Source of the DNA: Elusimicrobia bacterium GWA2_61_42
GTDB taxonomy: Bacteria > Elusimicrobiota > Elusimicrobia > Elusimicrobiales > UBA9959
DNA: 64,000 nt
Assembly (NCBI GenBank): GCA_001799615.1
Contig: MGTU01000031.1
Span: forward strand, 1-64,000
Reading direction: 5' to 3'
The notes under the pieces were generated by a model. That model worked only from the letters and a program-made list of their open reading frames with translations, had not been told where the DNA came from and ran no database searches. This document shows, piece by piece, positions 46,029 through 54,579 of this stretch. Each line of letters begins with the position of its first letter. Positions within the stretch are counted from its first letter, which is position 1. A program made the translations under genes and the position numbers.

Positions 46029-47444
46029 TCAGTCTTCCTTCAGCTCGGTCACCGGGCCGAACGCCGAAAGCGGCTTGTCGAATTTCTTGGAGTTGCCGAT
46101 GACGAAGATCTGGGCGTTGTCGGGGTCGAACAGCGAACTCGCGGCGGCGAAAGCCGAGTCCTTGGTGACCGCCGCCACATTGGCGACGTAGGTCTCGAGG
46201 TAGTCCGGCTGGTAGCCGAAAATCTCGAACAGGGCCCGCTGGCCGACTATATCGAACGGGGTCTTGAAGGTGAACACGAAAGAGTTGATCTTGGCGTCCT
46301 TGGCTTCCGACAGCTCCTGGTCCGAAAGTTTTTCCGTCGTTACGCGCTTCATCTGCTTGAGGATCTCTTCCAGGGCCTGGGAATAGGTCTCGGGCTTGGT
46401 GCCGCAGTAGGCCATGATGTAGCCGGGCTGCGCGCTGCGCTTCGAAAACCTGGAGTATACCGTGTAGGCCAGGCCCTTCCGGGTCCGGACCGTGTCCACC
46501 AGCCTGGAGGAAAGCCCCGGCGCGCCCAGCACGTCGTTGGTCAGGGCCAGCGGGAACTCTATGGGGTCCAGCCGCTTGAACCCTTTCTGCGTCAGCACGA
46601 TGAAAGTCTGGGGGATATCCTTGTCCACCAGGTAGACTTTCCGGCCCGCGTTCAGCTCAGGCGCTTTTATTTCCGGGAACTTGACCTCGCCTTTCTGCCA
46701 GCTGCCGAACCTGGCGTTAAGTTTCGCCAGGATCTCTTCGTCCGAGCCGTAGTCGCCGCTGACGGCCAGGATGACGTTGTTGGGCCTGTAGTAGGCGGCG
46801 TGGTGGGCCTTCAGGTCGGCTATTGTTATGGCTTCCAGGCCGGCTAGCTCGGTGCGCCTGCCGTAGGGGTGGTCCTTGCCGTAGAAATTACGCAGAGCCT
46901 CCCGTGTGGCCGCCCGGCCGGGGTCGTCGTTCCTGCGCAGTATCATCTCCAGTTCGCCCTTTTTCAGGATCTCGAACTTTTCCTGTTCGAAAGCGGGGTT
47001 CACCAGGATGTCCGCGTAGATATCCAGGACTTTATCCAGGTCTTTCTTCAGCGCGAACATCGAGAAACTCGCGTCCTCGTTGTCTATGGTGTAGCTTATG
47101 GAGGCGCCGAGGTATTCCAGGGTCTTGTCTATCTCGTCGGCCTTGTAGGAGGCGCTGCCGCCGTCCTCGAGCATGCCGGAGGTCAGGGCCGCCAGGCCGA
47201 CCTTGTCGGCCGGGTCGTACACGTTGCCGGTGCGCACCACGGCGTTTATCCGGATCGCGGGCAGCGTGGGGTCCTTCAGCAGGAAGATGGTGAGGCCGTT
47301 GTCCAGCACGCGGCGCTCGCCCTTGGGCGGCGTGAATTCCAGCTTGGGCGCTTTGGGCAGGTGCGGGGGCAGGGCCCAGGCCGAGGTGAGTGTTAGTGCC
47401 ATGATCGCTCCTGAAAGTCCGGTTTTTGAGATTAAATTTTTCAC
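46029..47444 (-). CDS. M16 family protein lacking the zinc motif
   Basis: A 471-residue exported member of the M16B family. The expected HxxEH is absent: the matching stretch reads LAALTSGMLEDGGSASYKADEID. Such subunits pair with an active partner, here the next-upstream gene. I start it at the GTG at 47444, which overlaps the upstream stop (GTGA) and has AAAGGAGA eight bases away; this gives MKNLISKTGLSGAIMALTLTSAWA, a signal peptide. A longer frame upstream lies within the partner gene and is rejected. Confidence 0.88.
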   Translation of the reverse strand: MKNLISKTGLSGAIMALTLTSAWALPPHLPKAPKLEFTPPKGERRVLDNGLTIFLLKDPTLPAIRINAVVRTGNVYDPADKVGLAALTSGMLEDGGSASYKADEIDKTLEYLGASISYTIDNEDASFSMFALKKDLDKVLDIYADILVNPAFEQEKFEILKKGELEMILRRNDDPGRAATREALRNFYGKDHPYGRRTELAGLEAITIADLKAHHAAYYRPNNVILAVSGDYGSDEEILAKLNARFGSWQKGEVKFPEIKAPELNAGRKVYLVDKDIPQTFIVLTQKGFKRLDPIEFPLALTNDVLGAPGLSSRLVDTVRTRKGLAYTVYSRFSKRSAQPGYIMAYCGTKPETYSQALEEILKQMKRVTTEKLSDQELSEAKDAKINSFVFTFKTPFDIVGQRALFEIFGYQPDYLETYVANVAAVTKDSAFAAASSLFDPDNAQIFVIGNSKKFDKPLSAFGPVTELKED

Positions 47445-48985
47445 TTTGCGTCTCCTTTTGCCTGGGCCGCGGCGGGCGGCTGGCGGAGCATGCCGATGGT
47501 GTAGTTGCCGCGCACCAGGTATTTGGCCGCCGCTTTGGATACGTCTTCCGGCTTGACCTTGCGCAGTTCCGCGCCCAGTTTCCAGTCGAACTTCCAATCG
47601 TCGGAGATCTGCTGGGAGAGGGCCAGGTTCTGGGCCAGCTCCAGGCTGGATTCCATGCTCTTGACCATTTCGGCCTCGTGGTTGTTGACTATCTTTTCCA
47701 GCTCCCACGCGGTGGGCGGCTCGGTCTTCAGCTTCTCCAGTTCTTCCCAGATGGCGGTCTCAAGCTCCTCGACGGTGTGCGGGGCTTTGGGCGCGGCCGC
47801 CACCACGAAGAGGGACGGGTACCTGGTGGAGGTGGCGTGGTACGAGCCGGCGTAAAGCGCCAGCTGCTTGCCTTCCACGAGGCTCCGGTAGAAGCGCCCG
47901 GTCTTGCCGTTGGACAGCACCTCGCTGACCATCATCAGCGCGTAAATGTCGGGGCTGTTGTAGCCCGGGTTATGGAAGGCCATCCGGAGGGCGGGTTTGG
48001 CGTTGAAGAAAAGGTTGAAGCGCTTCTCGGACTTCTGGGGGGGCTCCTCGGTGTAGGCCTTGTAGCCAAGGGAGCTGGGCTTCCAGGTGGAAAAATATTT
48101 TTCGGCCAGCCTTATCACCTCGGCCGGCTTCGCGTCGCCCACTATGGCCAGCGTGGCGTTGTTGGGCACGTAAAATTCCCCGTAAAACTTGTCCGCGTCG
48201 GTCCTGGTAAGGGTTTTTATATCGTCCATCCAGCCGCCGATGGGGTTGCGGTAGGGATGGATCATCATGGCCGTCGACATTACCTCGTTCATCAGGGACC
48301 TGTCGGGCTGGGTGGCGTACATGCGCTGCTCTTCCGTTACCACGTCGCGTTCCCTGTAGAATTCCCGCAGCACGGGGTTCTTGAACCTGTCCGACTCCAG
48401 CGCCATCAGGGTTTCCAGCTGGTTGGAAGGCAGGGACACCAGGTAGAAAGTATAATCCTGCGAGGTGGCCGCGTTAAGGCCTGACTGGCCGATGTTCTTG
48501 TAGATCTGGGAAAACTCGTCCTTTACTATGTAGGCGTCCCCTTCTTTTTCCGCGTCGGCAAGCTCCTTCTTCAGCTTTTCGACCAGGGCTTTGTCGGGGG
48601 CGGCTTTCCTCTCCGCGGCTATGAGCGCCTGCGCAGTTTTTTCTATCTTTTCAAGGACCAGCTTCTCTTTTTCGTAGTTATTAGTGTTTATGGTCTTGGT
48701 CCCTTTGAAGGCCACGTGCTCGAAAAGGTGCGCCAGGCCCGTTTTGCCCTGCGGGCTGTCCACGTTGCCCACCCGGAAGGCTATGGAGTAGGAGATGGTG
48801 GGGGCGAAGTGTTTCTCCAGTATCAGGAGTTTCAGCCCGTTCTTAAGGGTGTAGGAGACGACCGGGGGATACTTGGGGTCGGTTTCTATGGCCGCGCCCG
48901 CCGGGAGGTCCTTGCCGGCGGCGTCTTTGGCTATGGCCGGCTGGCAAAACAGCAATAAACAGGGCAGGAAAAGGGAGAGTCTCAT
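47441..48985 (-). CDS. M16 family zinc metallopeptidase, active subunit
   Basis: A 514-residue exported pitrilysin-family peptidase. The zinc motif H-x2-E-H is in GLAHLFEHVAFKGTKT, with the downstream Glu expected about 75 residues on. The insertion between residues 90 and 170 is unusually long and charged compared with short M16B enzymes. Start MRLSLFLPCLLLF at 48985 is supported by GGAGGA and gives a signal peptide. It heads the unit M16 active / M16 inactive / SPASM / GT2, probably forming a periplasmic heterodimer with the next gene. Confidence 0.92.
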   Translation of the reverse strand: MRLSLFLPCLLLFCQPAIAKDAAGKDLPAGAAIETDPKYPPVVSYTLKNGLKLLILEKHFAPTISYSIAFRVGNVDSPQGKTGLAHLFEHVAFKGTKTINTNNYEKEKLVLEKIEKTAQALIAAERKAAPDKALVEKLKKELADAEKEGDAYIVKDEFSQIYKNIGQSGLNAATSQDYTFYLVSLPSNQLETLMALESDRFKNPVLREFYRERDVVTEEQRMYATQPDRSLMNEVMSTAMMIHPYRNPIGGWMDDIKTLTRTDADKFYGEFYVPNNATLAIVGDAKPAEVIRLAEKYFSTWKPSSLGYKAYTEEPPQKSEKRFNLFFNAKPALRMAFHNPGYNSPDIYALMMVSEVLSNGKTGRFYRSLVEGKQLALYAGSYHATSTRYPSLFVVAAAPKAPHTVEELETAIWEELEKLKTEPPTAWELEKIVNNHEAEMVKSMESSLELAQNLALSQQISDDWKFDWKLGAELRKVKPEDVSKAAAKYLVRGNYTIGMLRQPPAAAQAKGDAK

Positions 48986-49152: not shown

Positions 49153-49158
49153 TATACT
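49153..49158 (+). promoter_or_regulatory. -10 element for the leader RNA
   Basis: TATACT preceded by GAGT. With a 17-base spacer the -35 is TTACCG, a poor match. Start of transcription is expected near 49165. Confidence 0.45.
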
Positions 49159-49164
49159 ATGAGT

Positions 49165-49270
49165 GCAGCACTTCCTTGTAATTTGGGGGATTGGCCCCGA
49201 AGTACCTACGATCCGACCTCAATCGGATGAATCCAGGGAAAGCAAAAAAAGACTTTGCTTTCTCTTTTTA
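49165..49270 (+). ncRNA. structured leader RNA, candidate riboswitch/attenuator
   Basis: The RNA can form a three-way junction: closing stem P1 UUCCUUG (49172-49178) with CAGGGAA (49234-49240, one G-U), P2 GGGG/CCCC (49185-49198) and P3 AUCCGA/UCGGAU (49211-49228), with a conserved-looking 12-base joiner GAAGUACCUACG. Directly after, GAAAGCAAA/TTTGCTTTC (49238-49262) plus TCTTTTT is an intrinsic terminator. The 3' arm of P1 overlaps the 5' arm of the terminator by three bases, the usual layout of a transcriptional riboswitch. I could not match it to purine, SAM, c-di-GMP, TPP, fluoride or other classes from memory. It might instead be a free small RNA of about 105 bases. Confidence 0.5.
49238..49270 (+). 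terminator. intrinsic terminator in the leader
   Basis: Nine-pair stem GAAAGCAAA/TTTGCTTTC, loop of seven, then TCTTTTT, 44 bases before the first small gene. It would block the downstream operon unless read through, which suggests regulated attenuation. Confidence 0.7.
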
Positions 49271-49313
49271 ATTTAGGGGAAAGCCGCAAACAAGGGTTAA
49301 AAGGGGATCGAAG

Positions 49314-49601
49314 ATGAAAAAAATACTTTTAAACGCGGTCATGGCGCTCTCCGCGGCCGGGCTGCTGGCTTACCTGGTCCTGCCGGTGCTCGCGCCCAAC
49401 GCGTCCGCCAGCGTTCTGCTGGCCTCCTCCAATTCCGATGATACCGAAGATCCTCCCGAAAAGCCCGACCATACCCCGCCCGTTAACACCGGCGGCACGG
49501 AGCCGGTGACCGGCGGCGGCAATGACGGCGCTACCGGCGGCGGCACCTCGGACGTGGTTCCCCCCAAGCCGGACGGCATGAGGATAGCGCTTAACGCCTG
49601 A
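49314..49601 (+). CDS. small secreted Gly/Pro-rich protein, copy 1
   Basis: A 95-residue protein: signal peptide MKKILLNAVMALSAAGLLAY with a probable cleavage after NASA, then a low-complexity mature part with GTEPVTGGG...TGGGTSD and PKPDG. These blocks (signal with S-x2-GLL; GTEP; G-GGGT-x-D; PKP) are shared with the next two genes, so the three are paralogues. Ribosome-binding site AAGGGG. It is the first gene after the structured leader RNA. No known family; a secreted signal peptide precursor or surface protein are the main ideas. Confidence 0.72.
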   Translation: MKKILLNAVMALSAAGLLAYLVLPVLAPNASASVLLASSNSDDTEDPPEKPDHTPPVNTGGTEPVTGGGNDGATGGGTSDVVPPKPDGMRIALNA

Positions 49602-49668
49602 AGGCGGCCCGCAAGCCGTTGTCGCCCCTGGAACAGCGCAAACTTTGAAAAAGCGGGAGCAATTAAAA

Positions 49669-49956
49669 GTGACCGAAAAAAACAAAAGAAAATTCTTAAT
49701 AGCGGTGCTGGCGTTAGCCTCCTCCGGGCTGCTGGCCTGCGCGGTGCCGTCCGTCTCGGCCGGCCTGTTTGCTTCGGCCGATAAGGCCGCGGGCACGGAA
49801 CCCGTCACCGACGCGGATAAGCCTCAGGGCCAGGCCCAGGGCACCGGCGGCGGAACCCAGGACGAACTTATTCCTAAACCCGGCGGGACCACCATTCCGG
49901 CCGAAGAGCCCAAACCGGCCGACGAACCCAAGCCGGCCGGCGCAGGAAAGCGATGA
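49669..49956 (+). CDS. small secreted Gly/Pro-rich protein, copy 2
   Basis: A 95-residue paralogue, same length as copy 1. I choose the GTG at 49669 (MTEKNKRKFLIAVLALASSG) because GGGAG lies about ten bases upstream and this gives a normal signal peptide; a TTG 24 bases earlier is the alternative. SGLLAC may act as a lipobox, or cleavage may occur at VSA. The mature part has GTEPVT, GTGGGTQDE and PKPGG and ends in two lysine-proline repeats (EEPKPADEPKPAG), a tail not found in the other copies. Starts 355 bases after copy 1. Confidence 0.7.
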   Translation: MTEKNKRKFLIAVLALASSGLLACAVPSVSAGLFASADKAAGTEPVTDADKPQGQAQGTGGGTQDELIPKPGGTTIPAEEPKPADEPKPAGAGKR

Positions 49957-50024
49957 TCCGTTCTCGCGGTAAAATTGCGCTAAAGGCGCGAAAATCGTAA
50001 AATAAGGTTTTAAGGGGCAGAAAA

Positions 50025-50264
50025 ATGAAAAAAATATTTTTAGCGGCGTTAATGACGGTTTCCTCGTTCGGGCTGTTGTCCGGCCTGGTCCTGCCGGAGA
50101 CAGCGAACGGCGGGTTCTCCGCCGGAGTGCTGGCGGTGGAAGGTGAGAAACCCGGCGGCGCGAACACGAGCGGCACCGAACCCGGGGAGGGCGGGGGCCA
50201 GGGCCAGGGTACCGGCGGCGGCACCGTGGACGAAGGTCAGCCGAAGCCCTCCGAGCCCAAATAG
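50025..50264 (+). CDS. small secreted Gly/Pro-rich protein, copy 3
   Basis: A 79-residue paralogue: MKKIFLAALMTVSSFGLLSG signal, then GTEPGEGGG, GTGGGTVDE and PKPSEPK. It begins 356 bases after copy 2, so the units repeat with a nearly constant period. Its ATGAAAAAAATA start and TTTTAAGGGGCAG leader resemble those of copy 1 at the DNA level. It ends 13 bases before the peptide-binding protein gene, which ties the triplet to that gene. Confidence 0.7.
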   Translation: MKKIFLAALMTVSSFGLLSGLVLPETANGGFSAGVLAVEGEKPGGANTSGTEPGEGGGQGQGTGGGTVDEGQPKPSEPK

Positions 50265-50277
50265 CGCCTCAAGGCTG

Positions 50278-51792
50278 ATGAAGATAGTAAAGATCTGGCC
50301 GCCCCTCGTGATAGGGGCGGCTTTTTTTGCGGCCTTTAAATTTTCCGGCGCTCCCGCGCAGGCGGAGCTCAAGGTGATGTCCAACGGCATCGCCCCGGTA
50401 ACCGCCTACGATCCCTCCTCCGCGGTTTTCGCGCCGGCCTACTTCCTGCTGGAAAATATCTTCAGCCCCCTGCTGGAATATTCCTCCGGGGACGAACTGG
50501 TTTCCGGCGCGGCCGAAAGGTTCGAATGGGCCGGCAGCGAGGCGCGTTTCACGATGCGCTCGGGCTTTATGACGGCGGACGGGCGCGCTATCGACGCCGC
50601 TGACGCGGAGCAGAGCCTGAAAAGGCTGTTCATCCTGGGCGGCCGCGAGCCCGACCTGCTGCGCGCCCTGTTGTGCGGCGGCGCGCCTTTAAAAAAACTA
50701 AGCGATCCCTGCCCCGGCCTGGAAGTGCGGGAGGGCGGCCGCGTGCTGGCGATGAAATTCAGCGAAAGAAAACCTTTTCTTTTCCACCTGCTGACGAATA
50801 TTTCTTACGCCGTCATCCCCCGGGGTTCCATAGAACCCGCGACGCTGAAGATAAAGGATTACCGCAATACCTCCGGGCCGTATTTCGTCAGCCGGGACGC
50901 CGGCGGCGGCAGCATAGAACTTCAGGCGAATCCGCACCATTACCGCTACTCCAAAGATATTCCGCAAAAGGTGAGGATCATCCCCCTTTTGGAAAATCTT
51001 AAGAACGAAGAAGCTCTGGGCCGGCTTTTGAGCGGCAAAATAGATTATATGCCCATCTTCCTCGTGCGCAACGCTGACGATAAGGCCCGGTTCGTTTCCG
51101 ACAACGGCGGGTATAACGCCCATTTCAGCCAGCCCATCCGCATGGTCTACGCGGTCTTTACCGACCGGGGGCTGAAAACCCTGACCGCGGAAGAACGGTT
51201 CTTCATCGCGAAAAAATTACGAAGTCTTTACAAGGCCAGGCGCGAAAGGTGCGAGGCCCCCGACCAGATCTTCAAGATGGAAGGAGCGCTTTCCCGCCCG
51301 CAGCTGCAGGCTATCCGCGGCAGGCTCGAGGCCCCGGCCGAACGCGTCATAAAAAAGAAGCTGACCGCTCCGGGGCTGTTCAGTTATTTCTGGGGCGACG
51401 CGGAAGACATAAAAAAGTGGCTGCCCAACGCCGCCGAGTCCGTCCCGCCGGGGCCCGGCGCGCCGGCGCGCCCGGCCGAACCGGATTTCCGCCTGGTGGG
51501 CGGCGATATCGGGTTCCAGGACGACGTGGGGCTGGTCTCCTATTACCTGGACATGGATTTCTTCAGGATGAGCGCGCCGGAAAAAAAAGACTGGTTCGAA
51601 AAATACGCGGCTTTTCGCGACAAGAAAGACCGGATGAAAATGCTCCAGACCCTGCATTACCGCACGCTGGCCGCCGCCCACGTACTGCCGGTGGCGCTGC
51701 TGCCTTACGCCTCGGTGGCGCGAAAGCCGTGGGCTTTCGAGGCCCCCGGCATGGTGGCCGGAGACCAGTTGTGGCGGCTGAAAAGGAATTAA
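50278..51792 (+). CDS. extracellular solute-binding protein family 5 (OppA/DppA-like)
   Basis: A 504-residue exported binding protein. Signal peptide from MKIVKIWPPLVIGAAFF to about AQA. Family-5 features: YDPSSAVFAPAYFLLENIFSPLLEY near the N-terminus, FTMRSGFMTADGRAIDAADAEQSLKRL, TSGPYFVSR and NPHHYRYSKDIPQKVRIIPL. The family binds peptides or other small solutes in the periplasm. No permease or ATPase gene is in the window, so it is more likely a sensor partner than a transporter part. It is followed three bases later by the histidine kinase. Confidence 0.88.
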   Translation: MKIVKIWPPLVIGAAFFAAFKFSGAPAQAELKVMSNGIAPVTAYDPSSAVFAPAYFLLENIFSPLLEYSSGDELVSGAAERFEWAGSEARFTMRSGFMTADGRAIDAADAEQSLKRLFILGGREPDLLRALLCGGAPLKKLSDPCPGLEVREGGRVLAMKFSERKPFLFHLLTNISYAVIPRGSIEPATLKIKDYRNTSGPYFVSRDAGGGSIELQANPHHYRYSKDIPQKVRIIPLLENLKNEEALGRLLSGKIDYMPIFLVRNADDKARFVSDNGGYNAHFSQPIRMVYAVFTDRGLKTLTAEERFFIAKKLRSLYKARRERCEAPDQIFKMEGALSRPQLQAIRGRLEAPAERVIKKKLTAPGLFSYFWGDAEDIKKWLPNAAESVPPGPGAPARPAEPDFRLVGGDIGFQDDVGLVSYYLDMDFFRMSAPEKKDWFEKYAAFRDKKDRMKMLQTLHYRTLAAAHVLPVALLPYASVARKPWAFEAPGMVAGDQLWRLKRN

Positions 51793-51795
51793 ACT

Positions 51796-53277
51796 ATGGA
51801 TCCTGAAATTAAAAAATCTATAAGGAAGCTTTTCGTCAAGTTCCTGGTGTTCCAGGCGGTCATCTTCGCGGCGGCCGTGCTGCTGTCGGTGGTGTCCACG
51901 GCGTACTTCAAGCAGCGCCTCGGCGCCCAGCTTTCTTCGGCGTCGCGGGACTCGATACTTTCCGGCGACGCCCGGCAGGCGATCATAAACATGACCTCCT
52001 CCATGTCGCGCGACTTCTCCGGCATGGCCTGGCTGCCCACCGGCGAGGAGCAGGGCTTCAGCGTGCCGGCCGGGGCGGACAAGGTCAGCAGGCTGCTGCG
52101 CGCCGTGTCCCGCGTCCGCGTTTATTTCGACGACGAGCGCCGCTTTCCGGCGGGGGACCTGTTCTTTTACTATTCCCGCTGGGCGCCCGCGGCCTGGGGC
52201 GTCCTCGCCTGGCTGATCCTCGCGCTGCTTTCCCTGCCGGTGGCGTTTTTTGAACGCAACAGGCTGATAAGGGATTATGACCTGCTGCTGGAACTGCGCG
52301 TAAAGGAGTCCCACGCCAATTTAGCGGCGCAGGTCGCGCACGACATCAGGTCGCCGCTGGCGGCGCTGGGCGCCGCGGCCCAGAACCTGCAGCTGCCCGA
52401 AGAGCAGCGCGCGCTTATCGACGGCGCCGTAGACCGCATGCGCGGCATAGCCGACGACCTGCTGGAACGCTACCGCGGTCCCGCCGCCGCTCCTAAAGCC
52501 GCTCCGGGAGCCCGCTCGCTGGCGGGGCTTATCTCCCAGGTAGTGGCCGAAAAGCGGCTGCAGCATAAGGGAAAGCCCGGCGTGGCCATAGAATTCAGCG
52601 GCGCGGGGGAAGAGATCCAGGCGGCGGTAGACCCCAAAGAACTGCAGCGCCTTGTGTCCAACCTGGTAAATAATTCCATCGAGGCCTTCAACGGTCCCGG
52701 CATGGTCGAGGTAAGCCTGTCGGCCGCGGACGGCAAGGCCGTGCTGCAAGTGAAAGACGACGGTAAAGGCATTCCGCCCGAACTGCTTTCCAGGCTGGGG
52801 CAGAAAGGCGTAACGCACGGCAAGCCCGGCGGCAACGGCCTGGGACTTTACCACGCCCGCGCCGCGGCCGAAGGCTGGGGCGGCAGCTTCAGGATCTGGT
52901 CCGAACCCGGCCGGGGGACGGTCATTACCATAGAGCTGCCCCGCGCCGCCGCCCGCGCCGCCGGCCGCGCGGCCGTGCTGCTGGACGACGACCTGCTGGT
53001 ACACCTTAACTGGAAGATGGCCGCCAAAACCGCCGGCGTCGACCTGAAAGCTTATAAAACCCCGGCGGAGCTGGCCGCCGGGCTCGCGGATCTCCCCAAG
53101 GCCACGCCCGTCTACATAGATTCCGACCTGGGCGGCGGTCTGAAAGGCGAGGACGTCGCCGCGCAGCTGCGGGCGGCGGGCTTCACCGACCTGACCATGG
53201 CCACCGGCCATTCCCCGGAAAAATTCGCAAGCTCGCCCTGGCTGAAAGTTATCGGCAAGGAACCGCCCTGGAAATAG
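51796..53277 (+). CDS. hybrid sensor histidine kinase with C-terminal receiver
   Basis: A 493-residue kinase: TM1 (about 13-35), a periplasmic loop of roughly 95 residues, TM2 (131-152), HisKA with H182 in VAHDIRSPLAAL, HATPase with N-box LVSNLVNNSIEAF, G1 DDGKGIP and G2 GNGLGLYHA. The final 105 residues form a receiver-like domain with D398/D399, phospho-acceptor D442 in YIDSDL, T470 in MATGH and K488 in GKEPPW. No separate response regulator or output domain is nearby. Three bases downstream of the binding protein, it could read the state of that protein in the periplasm. Confidence 0.93.
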   Translation: MDPEIKKSIRKLFVKFLVFQAVIFAAAVLLSVVSTAYFKQRLGAQLSSASRDSILSGDARQAIINMTSSMSRDFSGMAWLPTGEEQGFSVPAGADKVSRLLRAVSRVRVYFDDERRFPAGDLFFYYSRWAPAAWGVLAWLILALLSLPVAFFERNRLIRDYDLLLELRVKESHANLAAQVAHDIRSPLAALGAAAQNLQLPEEQRALIDGAVDRMRGIADDLLERYRGPAAAPKAAPGARSLAGLISQVVAEKRLQHKGKPGVAIEFSGAGEEIQAAVDPKELQRLVSNLVNNSIEAFNGPGMVEVSLSAADGKAVLQVKDDGKGIPPELLSRLGQKGVTHGKPGGNGLGLYHARAAAEGWGGSFRIWSEPGRGTVITIELPRAAARAAGRAAVLLDDDLLVHLNWKMAAKTAGVDLKAYKTPAELAAGLADLPKATPVYIDSDLGGGLKGEDVAAQLRAAGFTDLTMATGHSPEKFASSPWLKVIGKEPPWK

Positions 53278-53291
53278 AGGTTCCCGGGGGC

Positions 53292-53337
53292 AAAAAAAGA
53301 ACGGCGCGGGCTTTTGACCCGCGCCGCTCTTTTTTTC
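53292..53337 (+). terminator. bidirectional intrinsic terminator
   Basis: Nine-pair stem CGGCGCGGG/CCCGCGCCG (53302-53326) with loop CTTTTGA, flanked by A7 and T7. It closes the leader-RNA/kinase unit and the convergent M20 gene. Confidence 0.93.
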
Positions 53338-53340
53338 AGG

Positions 53341-54579
53341 TTATTTCTTCTGGCAGAGCAGCAGCGTGGTTATGGCGAAGACCTTGGCGTCGCCCATCAT
53401 GTGGTCGATGTCGCAGTATTCGTTGGGCATGTGCGCGGTCTCGCTGAGGCGCGAGTACACCACCACCGGCAGGTTGAGGCGCCTGAAGAAGGCCGCCACC
53501 GTGCCGCCGCCTATGCCGTAAGCCTTGGGCTCTACGCGCAGCACTTCTTTTATCGCCGTCTTGAGCGCCGTCACGATAGCGGCGTTCGGGTCGGTGGGGG
53601 GCGCGGCCTGCGCTTCCTGCTGCGGCTCGAAGGAGATCTTAACGCCGTGCTTCTTCTCCACCTCGTCGGCCAGGCGGCGCATCTCGGCCTTCACCTCGGT
53701 AAGCAGGTACTTGGGCATCACGCGGCAGTCCATGTAGAACACGTCCTCGCCGGGCAGCGTGTTCACGTTGGGCACGTTGTTCTCTTTCTTGGTGGGCTCG
53801 AAGGTGCTGATGGGCGGCTCGTACAGGTCGTCTTTGTGGGGGAATTTCTCGTAGAGGCCCTGGAACTTGACGATAAGTTCGCTGGCGGCCTTGAAGGCGT
53901 TGATGCCCAGGGAGGGGCGGCTGGCGTGGCACTGCTTGCCGTGGGTGATGACCTTCATCCACATGATGGATTTTTCGGCCACCTCTATCATGGAGCCGTC
54001 CTCGCTGCCGGAGTCGGGCACGAAGAACACGTCGTCCTTGCCGAAGATCTCGGGTTTATTGTCGGAGATATAGTCGGCGCCGTAGCCCGACCCGGTCTCC
54101 TCGTCGGCGCAGAACAGCAGGGCGATGTCGTATTCCGGCCGGTAGTCCAGCTCCATCATGGCCTTGACCACCATGATGCTGGACGCTATGGCCTGCTGGT
54201 TATCCTCTACGCCGCGGCCCACCAGATGGCGGCCCTGGACTTCCATTTTATAGGGATCGGATTTCCACAGTTTGGCTTCGCCGGGGGGGACGATGTCGAG
54301 GTGCGCCATGAACCAGATGGTTTTGGCGGAGCTTTTACCCTTGTAGCGGGCTATTACGTTGGGCCGGATGCCGTTCTTGGCCTCTTTCTGCGGCGCGTTG
54401 ATCCATTCGATGGAGTCGAACTTCAGCTTCTTCAGTTCGCCTTCCAGCCACTTGGCTTTGTCGTATTCGCCGGTGCCGCCGGAGGACGGGGCCAGCGCGG
54501 GGATGGCGGTAAGGCCGCGCTGCAGCTCTACCGCGTAGGTCTCGTAGGATTCTATTTTTTTCAGGATCTTTTCTTTCAT
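53341..54579 (-). CDS. M20 family metallopeptidase
   Basis: A 412-residue cytoplasmic di-zinc peptidase or deacylase of the ArgE/DapE/dipeptidase group. Metal motifs: FMAHLDIVPPG, GRGVEDNQQA and CADEETGSGYGADY; a dimerisation domain lies at about 205-310; IGGGTVAAFFRR and SETAHMPNEYC supply further ligands. Substrate cannot be told; the layout is closest to M20 dipeptidases. AAGGAGCT precedes the ATG and TATACT lies further upstream. Confidence 0.9.
   Translation of the reverse strand: MKEKILKKIESYETYAVELQRGLTAIPALAPSSGGTGEYDKAKWLEGELKKLKFDSIEWINAPQKEAKNGIRPNVIARYKGKSSAKTIWFMAHLDIVPPGEAKLWKSDPYKMEVQGRHLVGRGVEDNQQAIASSIMVVKAMMELDYRPEYDIALLFCADEETGSGYGADYISDNKPEIFGKDDVFFVPDSGSEDGSMIEVAEKSIMWMKVITHGKQCHASRPSLGINAFKAASELIVKFQGLYEKFPHKDDLYEPPISTFEPTKKENNVPNVNTLPGEDVFYMDCRVMPKYLLTEVKAEMRRLADEVEKKHGVKISFEPQQEAQAAPPTDPNAAIVTALKTAIKEVLRVEPKAYGIGGGTVAAFFRRLNLPVVVYSRLSETAHMPNEYCDIDHMMGDAKVFAITTLLLCQKK

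Follow-up and report, generated by a model that had tools for sequence, protein, structure and literature searches.

A riboswitch-led operon of Elusimicrobia bacterium GWA2_61_42 as a probable self-sensing peptide–receptor–kinase cassette

We analyzed an operon of five genes in a 64,000-nucleotide stretch of DNA from Elusimicrobia bacterium GWA2_61_42 (contig MGTU01000031.1, positions 1 to 64,000 of the forward strand; this whole stretch is referred to as the window). Behind a riboswitch leader, the operon encodes three small proteins with putative signal peptides, an OppA-like binding protein and a hybrid histidine kinase, and we propose that it is probably a self-sensing cassette of peptide, receptor and kinase, one of a diversifying family in the Elusimicrobiota that perhaps feeds a single sigma-54 regulator. 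A first-pass annotation, made from the DNA letters alone, had already suggested that the secreted products are the ligands of a self-sensing loop. That suggestion gains from the genetic linkage in relatives, from co-variation of peptide C-termini with the binding protein and from a missing importer, the secreted products themselves being the presumed ligands.

The source genome (2.95 Mb in 34 contigs; G000) carries the operon on contig C31, where the five genes lie on the + strand at 49314-53277 (Table 1). The co-directional arrangement and the gaps of 13 bases upstream and 3 bases downstream of the binding protein gene were found as the first-pass annotation had given them. All five genes were retained by a home-made coding-score caller (scores of 21, 7, 12, 96 and 144 in gene order), which places the start of the third gene at 50052. 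Propeptide, receptor and kinase are encoded together, as in the layout of peptide two-component quorum-sensing systems, secretion being judged from sequence.

First, we evaluated whether the arrangement recurs in related genomes, where cassettes were read from mechanical open reading frames (ORFs) and tblastn because the coding-score caller missed many of their genes. At E 1e-30 or better, the kinase search matched 25 of 60 relatives and the binding protein search 9 of 60. The best 80 kinase matches listed gave 77 loci, on which all counts out of 77 rest; by record title these are 67 Elusimicrobia-type, 5 other bacteria, 3 Bacteriovoracaceae, 1 Bdellovibrionales and 1 Obscuribacterium. A binding protein lies immediately upstream of the kinase at 42 of the 77 (L121, in which a further gene separates the two, was scored as not linked), and 31 of those 42 also contain a match to a radical S-adenosylmethionine (SAM) enzyme or to YcaO. 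The general pattern, of which the relatives (mostly Elusimicrobia metagenome-assembled genomes) carry numerous paralogous operons, is an optional riboswitch, a secreted peptide, an optional radical SAM or YcaO enzyme, a binding protein and a kinase. Four types can be told apart: type A (peptide and radical SAM enzyme, then in many cases a GNAT-like gene, then binding protein and kinase); type B, with another radical SAM enzyme and a different gene order; type C, with YcaO before or after the binding protein; and type D, the type of the window operon, which has no enzyme. The type A enzyme is best matched by the peptide epimerase model YydG (57.4 bits against a cut-off of 300), and YcaO exceeds its Pfam cut-off in L087 and L141 and falls below it in L082. 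The L141 cassette, from a Bacteriovoracaceae metagenome-assembled genome, consists of peptide, binding protein, YcaO and kinase, and has no Rfam riboswitch.

When near-identical cassettes were merged to 48 and 10 with less than 350 nt of upstream sequence were dropped, 38 distinct cassettes remained. A small ORF with a hydrophobic N-terminus precedes 33 of these 38, compared with 7 of 113 control genes; for L134 the best ORF in this count differs from its type A peptide, which is present in the peptide list. Four other type D cassettes have binding proteins 55–59% identical to that of the window (55–64% for binding proteins and kinases together), and in three of the four (L094, L093 and L095, the last equal to L077) one small secreted ORF stands directly 5' of the binding protein gene. 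In the fourth (G022, L075) no small secreted ORF was found between the preceding kinase and the binding protein. The window binding protein is also 43% and 38% identical to those of the peptide–binding protein–YcaO–kinase cassettes L078 and L087. The first-pass annotation had named a finding that would refute its reading, namely relatives in which the small genes never occur beside the binding protein and kinase; we looked for the linkage and found it, both among the orthologous cassettes and overall. A one-off chance cluster is rejected because of the related cassettes in other genomes. As a separate observation, the stretch L092:7362-8502, near a YcaO cassette, encodes a pair of short Cys-rich proteins that share a leader, and behind them begins an ORF containing a CxxxCxxC-like motif; from its sequence this is possibly a separate radical SAM peptide locus.

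Second, we compared the variability of type A peptides with that of their partners. Among 19 type A peptides, ungapped identity falls from 0.58 in residues 1-22 through 0.40 in residues 23-38 to 0.12 from residue 39 to the end. In the 18 cassettes for which all three genes were found, aligned identity is lowest for the C-terminal part of the peptide (0.24) and higher for the binding protein (0.40), the radical SAM enzyme (0.43) and the kinase (0.64), and similarity of the C-terminal part correlates with the binding protein (0.47) and the radical SAM enzyme (0.44) and not with the kinase (0.06). Corrected for the other partners (radical SAM, kinase, sensor and leader) in the 14 clean cassettes left after removal of four with odd kinase spans, the partial correlation of the C-terminus is 0.29 with the binding protein (P 0.011) and 0.07 with the radical SAM enzyme (P 0.27). 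The radical SAM enzyme is rejected as the driver of the co-variation, as its signal vanishes once the binding protein is accounted for. Co-variation of C-terminus and binding protein is the pattern that a ligand and its receptor would show.

Third, we examined the binding protein and searched the genome for an importer that it might serve. Against Pfam SBP_bac_5 alone the protein is sub-threshold (26.2 bits, cut-off 32.4), and it is placed in the OppA-type family by its model and its profile: the model (predicted local distance difference test, pLDDT, 86.8; predicted template modelling score, pTM, 0.83) matches MppA, OppA and NikA, with MppA as the best Foldseek hit (5.5e-25), and the family profile matches OppA at 2e-35 and PrgZ at 5.5e-15. 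It is the sole SBP_bac_5 match in the genome; the cassette on contig C6 encodes a divergent relative that Pfam does not report. The operon contains no permease or ATPase gene, in agreement with the first-pass annotation, and a search of the source genome found neither OppC_N nor oligo_HPY, both of which are present in 11 of 14 control genomes; there are five BPD_transp_1 matches. The genome is therefore without the usual oligopeptide importer, and a nutrient uptake operon is rejected since the importer families were not found. With no matching importer, the binding protein is more readily understood as a receptor. Two results taken together, namely (i) hypervariable C-termini that co-vary with the binding protein and (ii) the missing importer, favor the ligand–receptor reading.

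The three small proteins share sequence blocks such as GTEP and GTGGGT, and for every pair, in N-terminal and mature parts alike, none of 1000 shuffles reached the observed score. The shared blocks seen in the first pass are hence beyond chance; the signal peptides claimed with them are again read from sequence only. Beyond the signal, Gly, Pro, Thr and acidic residues are abundant. A Pfam search of the three proteins gave no match, and the window operon has no modifying enzyme of the kind found beside the precursor in operons for ribosomally synthesized and post-translationally modified peptides (RiPPs).

The leader is the only Rfam match in the whole window at gathering scores and belongs to RF03165, the 2dG-II (2'-deoxyguanosine, 2'-dG) riboswitch family, by its covariance score. 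The 3' arm of aptamer helix P1 doubles as the start of the terminator stem, a hairpin of -13.3 kcal/mol. Because this arm is shared, and because the leader folds at -33.6 kcal/mol in its terminated form and at -28.0 kcal/mol with P1 forced, the ligand should favor read-through, and the leader is predicted to be an ON switch. The first-pass annotation had recorded a leader RNA, which is indeed present; its identity as a purine riboswitch, like the radical SAM and YcaO cassettes of the family, had gone unnoticed. Among the matches listed, 69 of 199 relatives have RF03165, and for 67 of them the score exceeds the cut-off. Within the genus we considered 83 riboswitches, taken from the best matches listed and in part incomplete at contig ends, of which 21 precede both a binding protein and a kinase; P1 and terminator overlap in all 21 of these and in 42 of the 62 others.

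At the equivalent of position 51, 81 of the 83 genus aptamers have C. The two with U both belong to the source genome, which has five riboswitches above the cut-off: one is the window aptamer and the other lies on contig C22 (L034, G000:C22:138760-138830). According to the available part of PMC8872408, C51 is critical for the nucleoside selectivity of 2'-dG-II riboswitches, and U51 is given with U22 and C74 as a guanine contact in the available part of PMC9295807. Because it has U51, the ligand of the window aptamer is possibly guanine, and 2'-dG is rejected as its named ligand; we file the RNA as an RF03165 aptamer of uncertain ligand rather than as a 2'-dG sensor. Both U51 riboswitches may have shifted from deoxyguanosine to guanine. 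A sixth riboswitch of the source genome, on contig C2, scores below the cut-off (45.2 bits) and lies 5' of a 248-aa ORF. Other 2dG-II riboswitches (L033, L035 and many genus loci) head a secreted protein of the metallo-beta-lactamase fold (Lactamase_B, 6.1e-16), which we take to resemble ComEC, or alternatively a secreted 293-aa protein with no Pfam match followed by a 265-aa membrane protein.

The kinase exceeds the Pfam cut-offs for HisKA and HATPase_c. Pfam does not report its receiver (Response_reg), the residues of which were identified from an alignment of 13 relatives in which H182, D397-D399, D442, T470 and K488 are invariant, so that a HisKA domain with a phospho-His, HATPase_c and a receiver with a phospho-Asp can be assigned and the protein classed as a putative hybrid histidine kinase. 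The receiver named in the first pass is thus borne out by its invariant residues. For the periplasmic loop named with it, a model of modest quality (pTM 0.38) has a long first helix, then a stretch at residues ~59-127 predicted to lie in the periplasm, and after it another long helix.

A candidate output is encoded on contig C6 of the source genome, 2-3 kb from the type A kinase: one gene is for a regulator that combines a receiver with a sigma-54 activator domain, the other for a protein of 57 aa whose HisKA match is sub-threshold. Of 82 loci scanned, 15 have a regulator of this type. In the source genome, identity to the C6 regulator falls to 36% in its next relative, and nothing else matches the 57-aa protein well, so that the only close copies of both sit on C6; for this reason the kinases of the genome may share one output. 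Around the C6 cassette (L232, G000:C6:1-16000), in stretches chosen for sites, there are matches to TGGCAY-N5-TTGC, which we take to be the sigma-54 promoter consensus, and behind them genes for a 189-aa Cys-containing secreted protein, a 177-aa protein, an ATP-binding cassette (ABC) transporter and a 264-aa tetratricopeptide repeat (TPR) protein. Behind one such site lies a 356-aa protein with only the sigma-54 DNA-binding domain (PF04552, 2.5e-15; L232:4662-5732, - strand), and a similar protein is encoded upstream of the G022 cassette (L075:3-923). Genome-wide, the pattern with one mismatch occurs 81 times against 172 for the reversed control, which is no enrichment, so that single hits mean little; the scan of the genome found no site on C31 and hence none beside the window operon.

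We infer the RNA ligand, secretion, processing, ligand identity, receptor–kinase contact, phosphorelay and output, and on this footing the cassette would work as follows. Binding of a purine ligand to the 2dG-II-class riboswitch would let transcription pass the terminator, and short precursors with an N-terminal secretion signal would then be made. In sister cassettes the co-encoded radical SAM or YcaO enzyme probably modifies the precursors, a step that the enzyme-free window subtype would lack. The mature C-terminal piece, from the cell itself or from kin, would be captured in the periplasm by the co-encoded OppA-like receptor, and, once loaded, this receptor would act on the hybrid kinase at its periplasmic domain. 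From the kinase receiver, phosphate would pass to the 57-aa phosphotransfer-like protein and on to the sigma-54 response regulator.

Several results weigh against this proposal. By the same adjacency test, 35 of the 77 kinase loci have no adjacent binding protein, 7 of them with less than 2 kb of upstream sequence, and 5 of the 38 distinct cassettes have no candidate peptide, four of these being pairs of binding protein and kinase with no enzyme. These four (L111, L112, L126 and L131) are possibly listeners for the peptides of others. For type D itself, the mature small proteins of the window do not align with those of three orthologous cassettes (z at most 2.7), and a conserved signal therefore cannot be demonstrated. 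The leader is also irregular within the type: two of the four other cassettes (L077 and L093) have no riboswitch at the gathering score, one orthologue has a degenerate riboswitch with an insertion in the aptamer (46.3 bits), the type D genes of G022 follow a type B cassette whose upstream riboswitch is the only one there, and the window aptamer departs from C51, the base tied to nucleoside selectivity in its class. The conserved Asp of the binding protein family falls two columns off the OppA Asp in the profile alignment; the latter, which we take to hold the peptide N-terminus through its alpha-amine, is accordingly rejected as proof of peptide binding. Moreover, the GNAT and HPt-like labels come from Pfam matches below the cut-off. 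The co-variation test was unplanned and covers few cassettes, all of type A, and its statistics ignore phylogeny.

A more far-reaching form of the proposal, which we put forward only tentatively, is that the cassettes are private peptide channels in an uncultured diderm phylum. Each of several cassettes per genome would have its own hypervariable, often enzyme-modified secreted peptide and its own OppA-like receptor. All would report to a single sigma-54 regulator, and a purine-sensing RNA would license them, so that kin would be listened to only in the presence of DNA breakdown products, which would indicate lysis or DNA uptake.

The likeliest of the rival readings holds that the small proteins, modified in sister cassettes, are secreted antimicrobial peptides with their own sensor, in which the binding protein captures the peptide in the periplasm for immunity and reports to the kinase, and the signal would be the weapon. 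RiPP operons typically contain radical SAM or YcaO enzymes, YydG is the model nearest to the type A enzyme, and hypervariable C-termini would be compatible with an arms race. We nevertheless consider this explanation unlikely: neither an exporter gene nor one of immunity type was seen in the cassettes, the window operon lacks a modifying enzyme, and its Gly/Pro/Thr/acidic-rich proteins are unlike common antimicrobial peptides.

Still less probable, in our judgment, is that the system senses a peptide or DNA-derived compound from the environment, with the small proteins as surface or accessory products of the same regulon rather than ligands. This would accommodate the four cassettes with binding protein and kinase but no peptide gene, the nickel, opine and other ligands known for the fold, and the metallo-beta-lactamase-fold and other secreted products headed by the same riboswitch class, for which DNA breakdown could be the common theme. 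It does not account for the small secreted ORF ahead of 33 of 38 cassettes, the precursor-modifying enzymes in 31 of 42 linked loci or the co-variation of the peptide C-terminus with the binding protein. Finally, it is very improbable that the three small ORFs are what is left, decayed or spurious, of a precursor array that lost its enzyme, with only receptor and kinase still at work. The kinship of the window binding protein with those of YcaO cassettes, the aptamer that departs from consensus and the GTG start and weak coding score of the second ORF would fit this reading. Against it, the three tandem copies have blocks in common both in the signal and in the mature part, their coding scores are positive, and one secreted ORF is kept in place in three of four orthologous cassettes. 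The self-sensing cassette thus stays our preferred explanation.

Table 1. Features of the operon and its borders in the window
Feature	Position	Strand	Basis
Candidate -10 element TATACT, directly 5' of the aptamer	49153..49158	+	Sequence inspection, no promoter scan
2dG-II purine riboswitch aptamer (RF03165), U at the position-51 equivalent	49171..49241	+	73.6 bits, gathering score 60
Intrinsic terminator, 5' arm overlapping the aptamer P1 3' arm; predicted ON switch	49235..49270	+	Fold energies
Small secreted protein 1 (putative), 95 aa	49314..49601	+	Coding score, shared blocks
Small secreted protein 2 (putative), 95 aa from GTG	49669..49956	+	Coding score, shared blocks; TTG at 49645 would give 103 aa
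Small secreted protein 3 (putative), 79 aa	50025..50264	+	Shared blocks
Family 5 (OppA-fold) binding protein, 504 aa, N-terminal signal-like helix	50278..51792	+	SBP_bac_5 below cut-off, model pLDDT 86.8, Foldseek MppA
Hybrid histidine kinase, C-terminal receiver, 493 aa	51796..53277	+	HisKA, HATPase_c, conserved H182, D442
GC-rich hairpin and T-run, separating the operon from the convergent M20 peptidase gene	~53292..53336	.	Sequence inspection, no terminator scan

The first-pass annotation had bounded the operon by a promoter and leader on the left and a strong terminator on the right; the leader is secured as a riboswitch, and the promoter element and the right-hand hairpin with its T-run are candidates recognized by inspection. 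M16 peptidase genes (46029-48985; family confirmed for 47441-48985) and an M20 peptidase gene (53341-54579) flank the operon. Both are recognizable by sequence beside the L094 cassette, an M16 gene adjoins the type A cassette in L079, and an M20 gene follows the array of types B and D in L075. These common flanks across cassette types hint at cassette exchange at one site.

We found no literature on the combination of riboswitch, secreted peptide, binding protein and kinase, as judged from titles and abstracts. Peptide quorum sensing is chiefly known from Gram-positive bacteria, and because sister operons carry peptide-modifying enzymes, our results suggest that double-membraned bacteria use the cassettes for a form of peptide signaling not described so far. 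If this is true, diderms would gain an expressible soluble receptor whose candidate ligand is encoded next to it, and ligand–receptor specificity could be tested directly on dozens of natural pairs, cognate and non-cognate. A riboswitch class whose targets are obscure would also acquire a physiological role, and a single genome supplies two natural variants of its specificity base.

Among known systems, the 2'-dG-II riboswitches are the same RNA family as the window leader by covariance score, which nevertheless has U51 for C51. Genes for signal receiver domains downstream of these riboswitches are already in print (PMC8872408, available part), and that association is therefore not new; the link to a secreted peptide, a binding protein and a kinase is absent from the available part of that account. 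With OppA, MppA and PrgZ the window binding protein shares fold and profile; it differs in that its genome has no importer parts and in being coupled to a kinase.

In the Rgg/SHP system of streptococci the peptide is imported and read by cytoplasmic Rgg. The radical SAM-modified RiPPs (RaS-RiPPs) under Rgg/SHP control are likewise reported to bring short secreted peptides, radical SAM maturases and peptide sensing together in one locus. The present cassettes, by contrast, belong to diderms and encode an OppA-like protein of the periplasm together with a hybrid kinase; a radical SAM enzyme is missing from the window subtype.

LuxP-LuxQ, ChvE-VirA and TorT-TorS are binding-protein-dependent kinase systems with autoinducer-2 (AI-2), sugars and trimethylamine N-oxide (TMAO) as ligands. 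They resemble the cassettes in that a periplasmic binding protein adjoins a kinase with a periplasmic domain, whereas the cassettes use a binding protein of family 5 (OppA-type) together with co-encoded small proteins that are predicted to be secreted.

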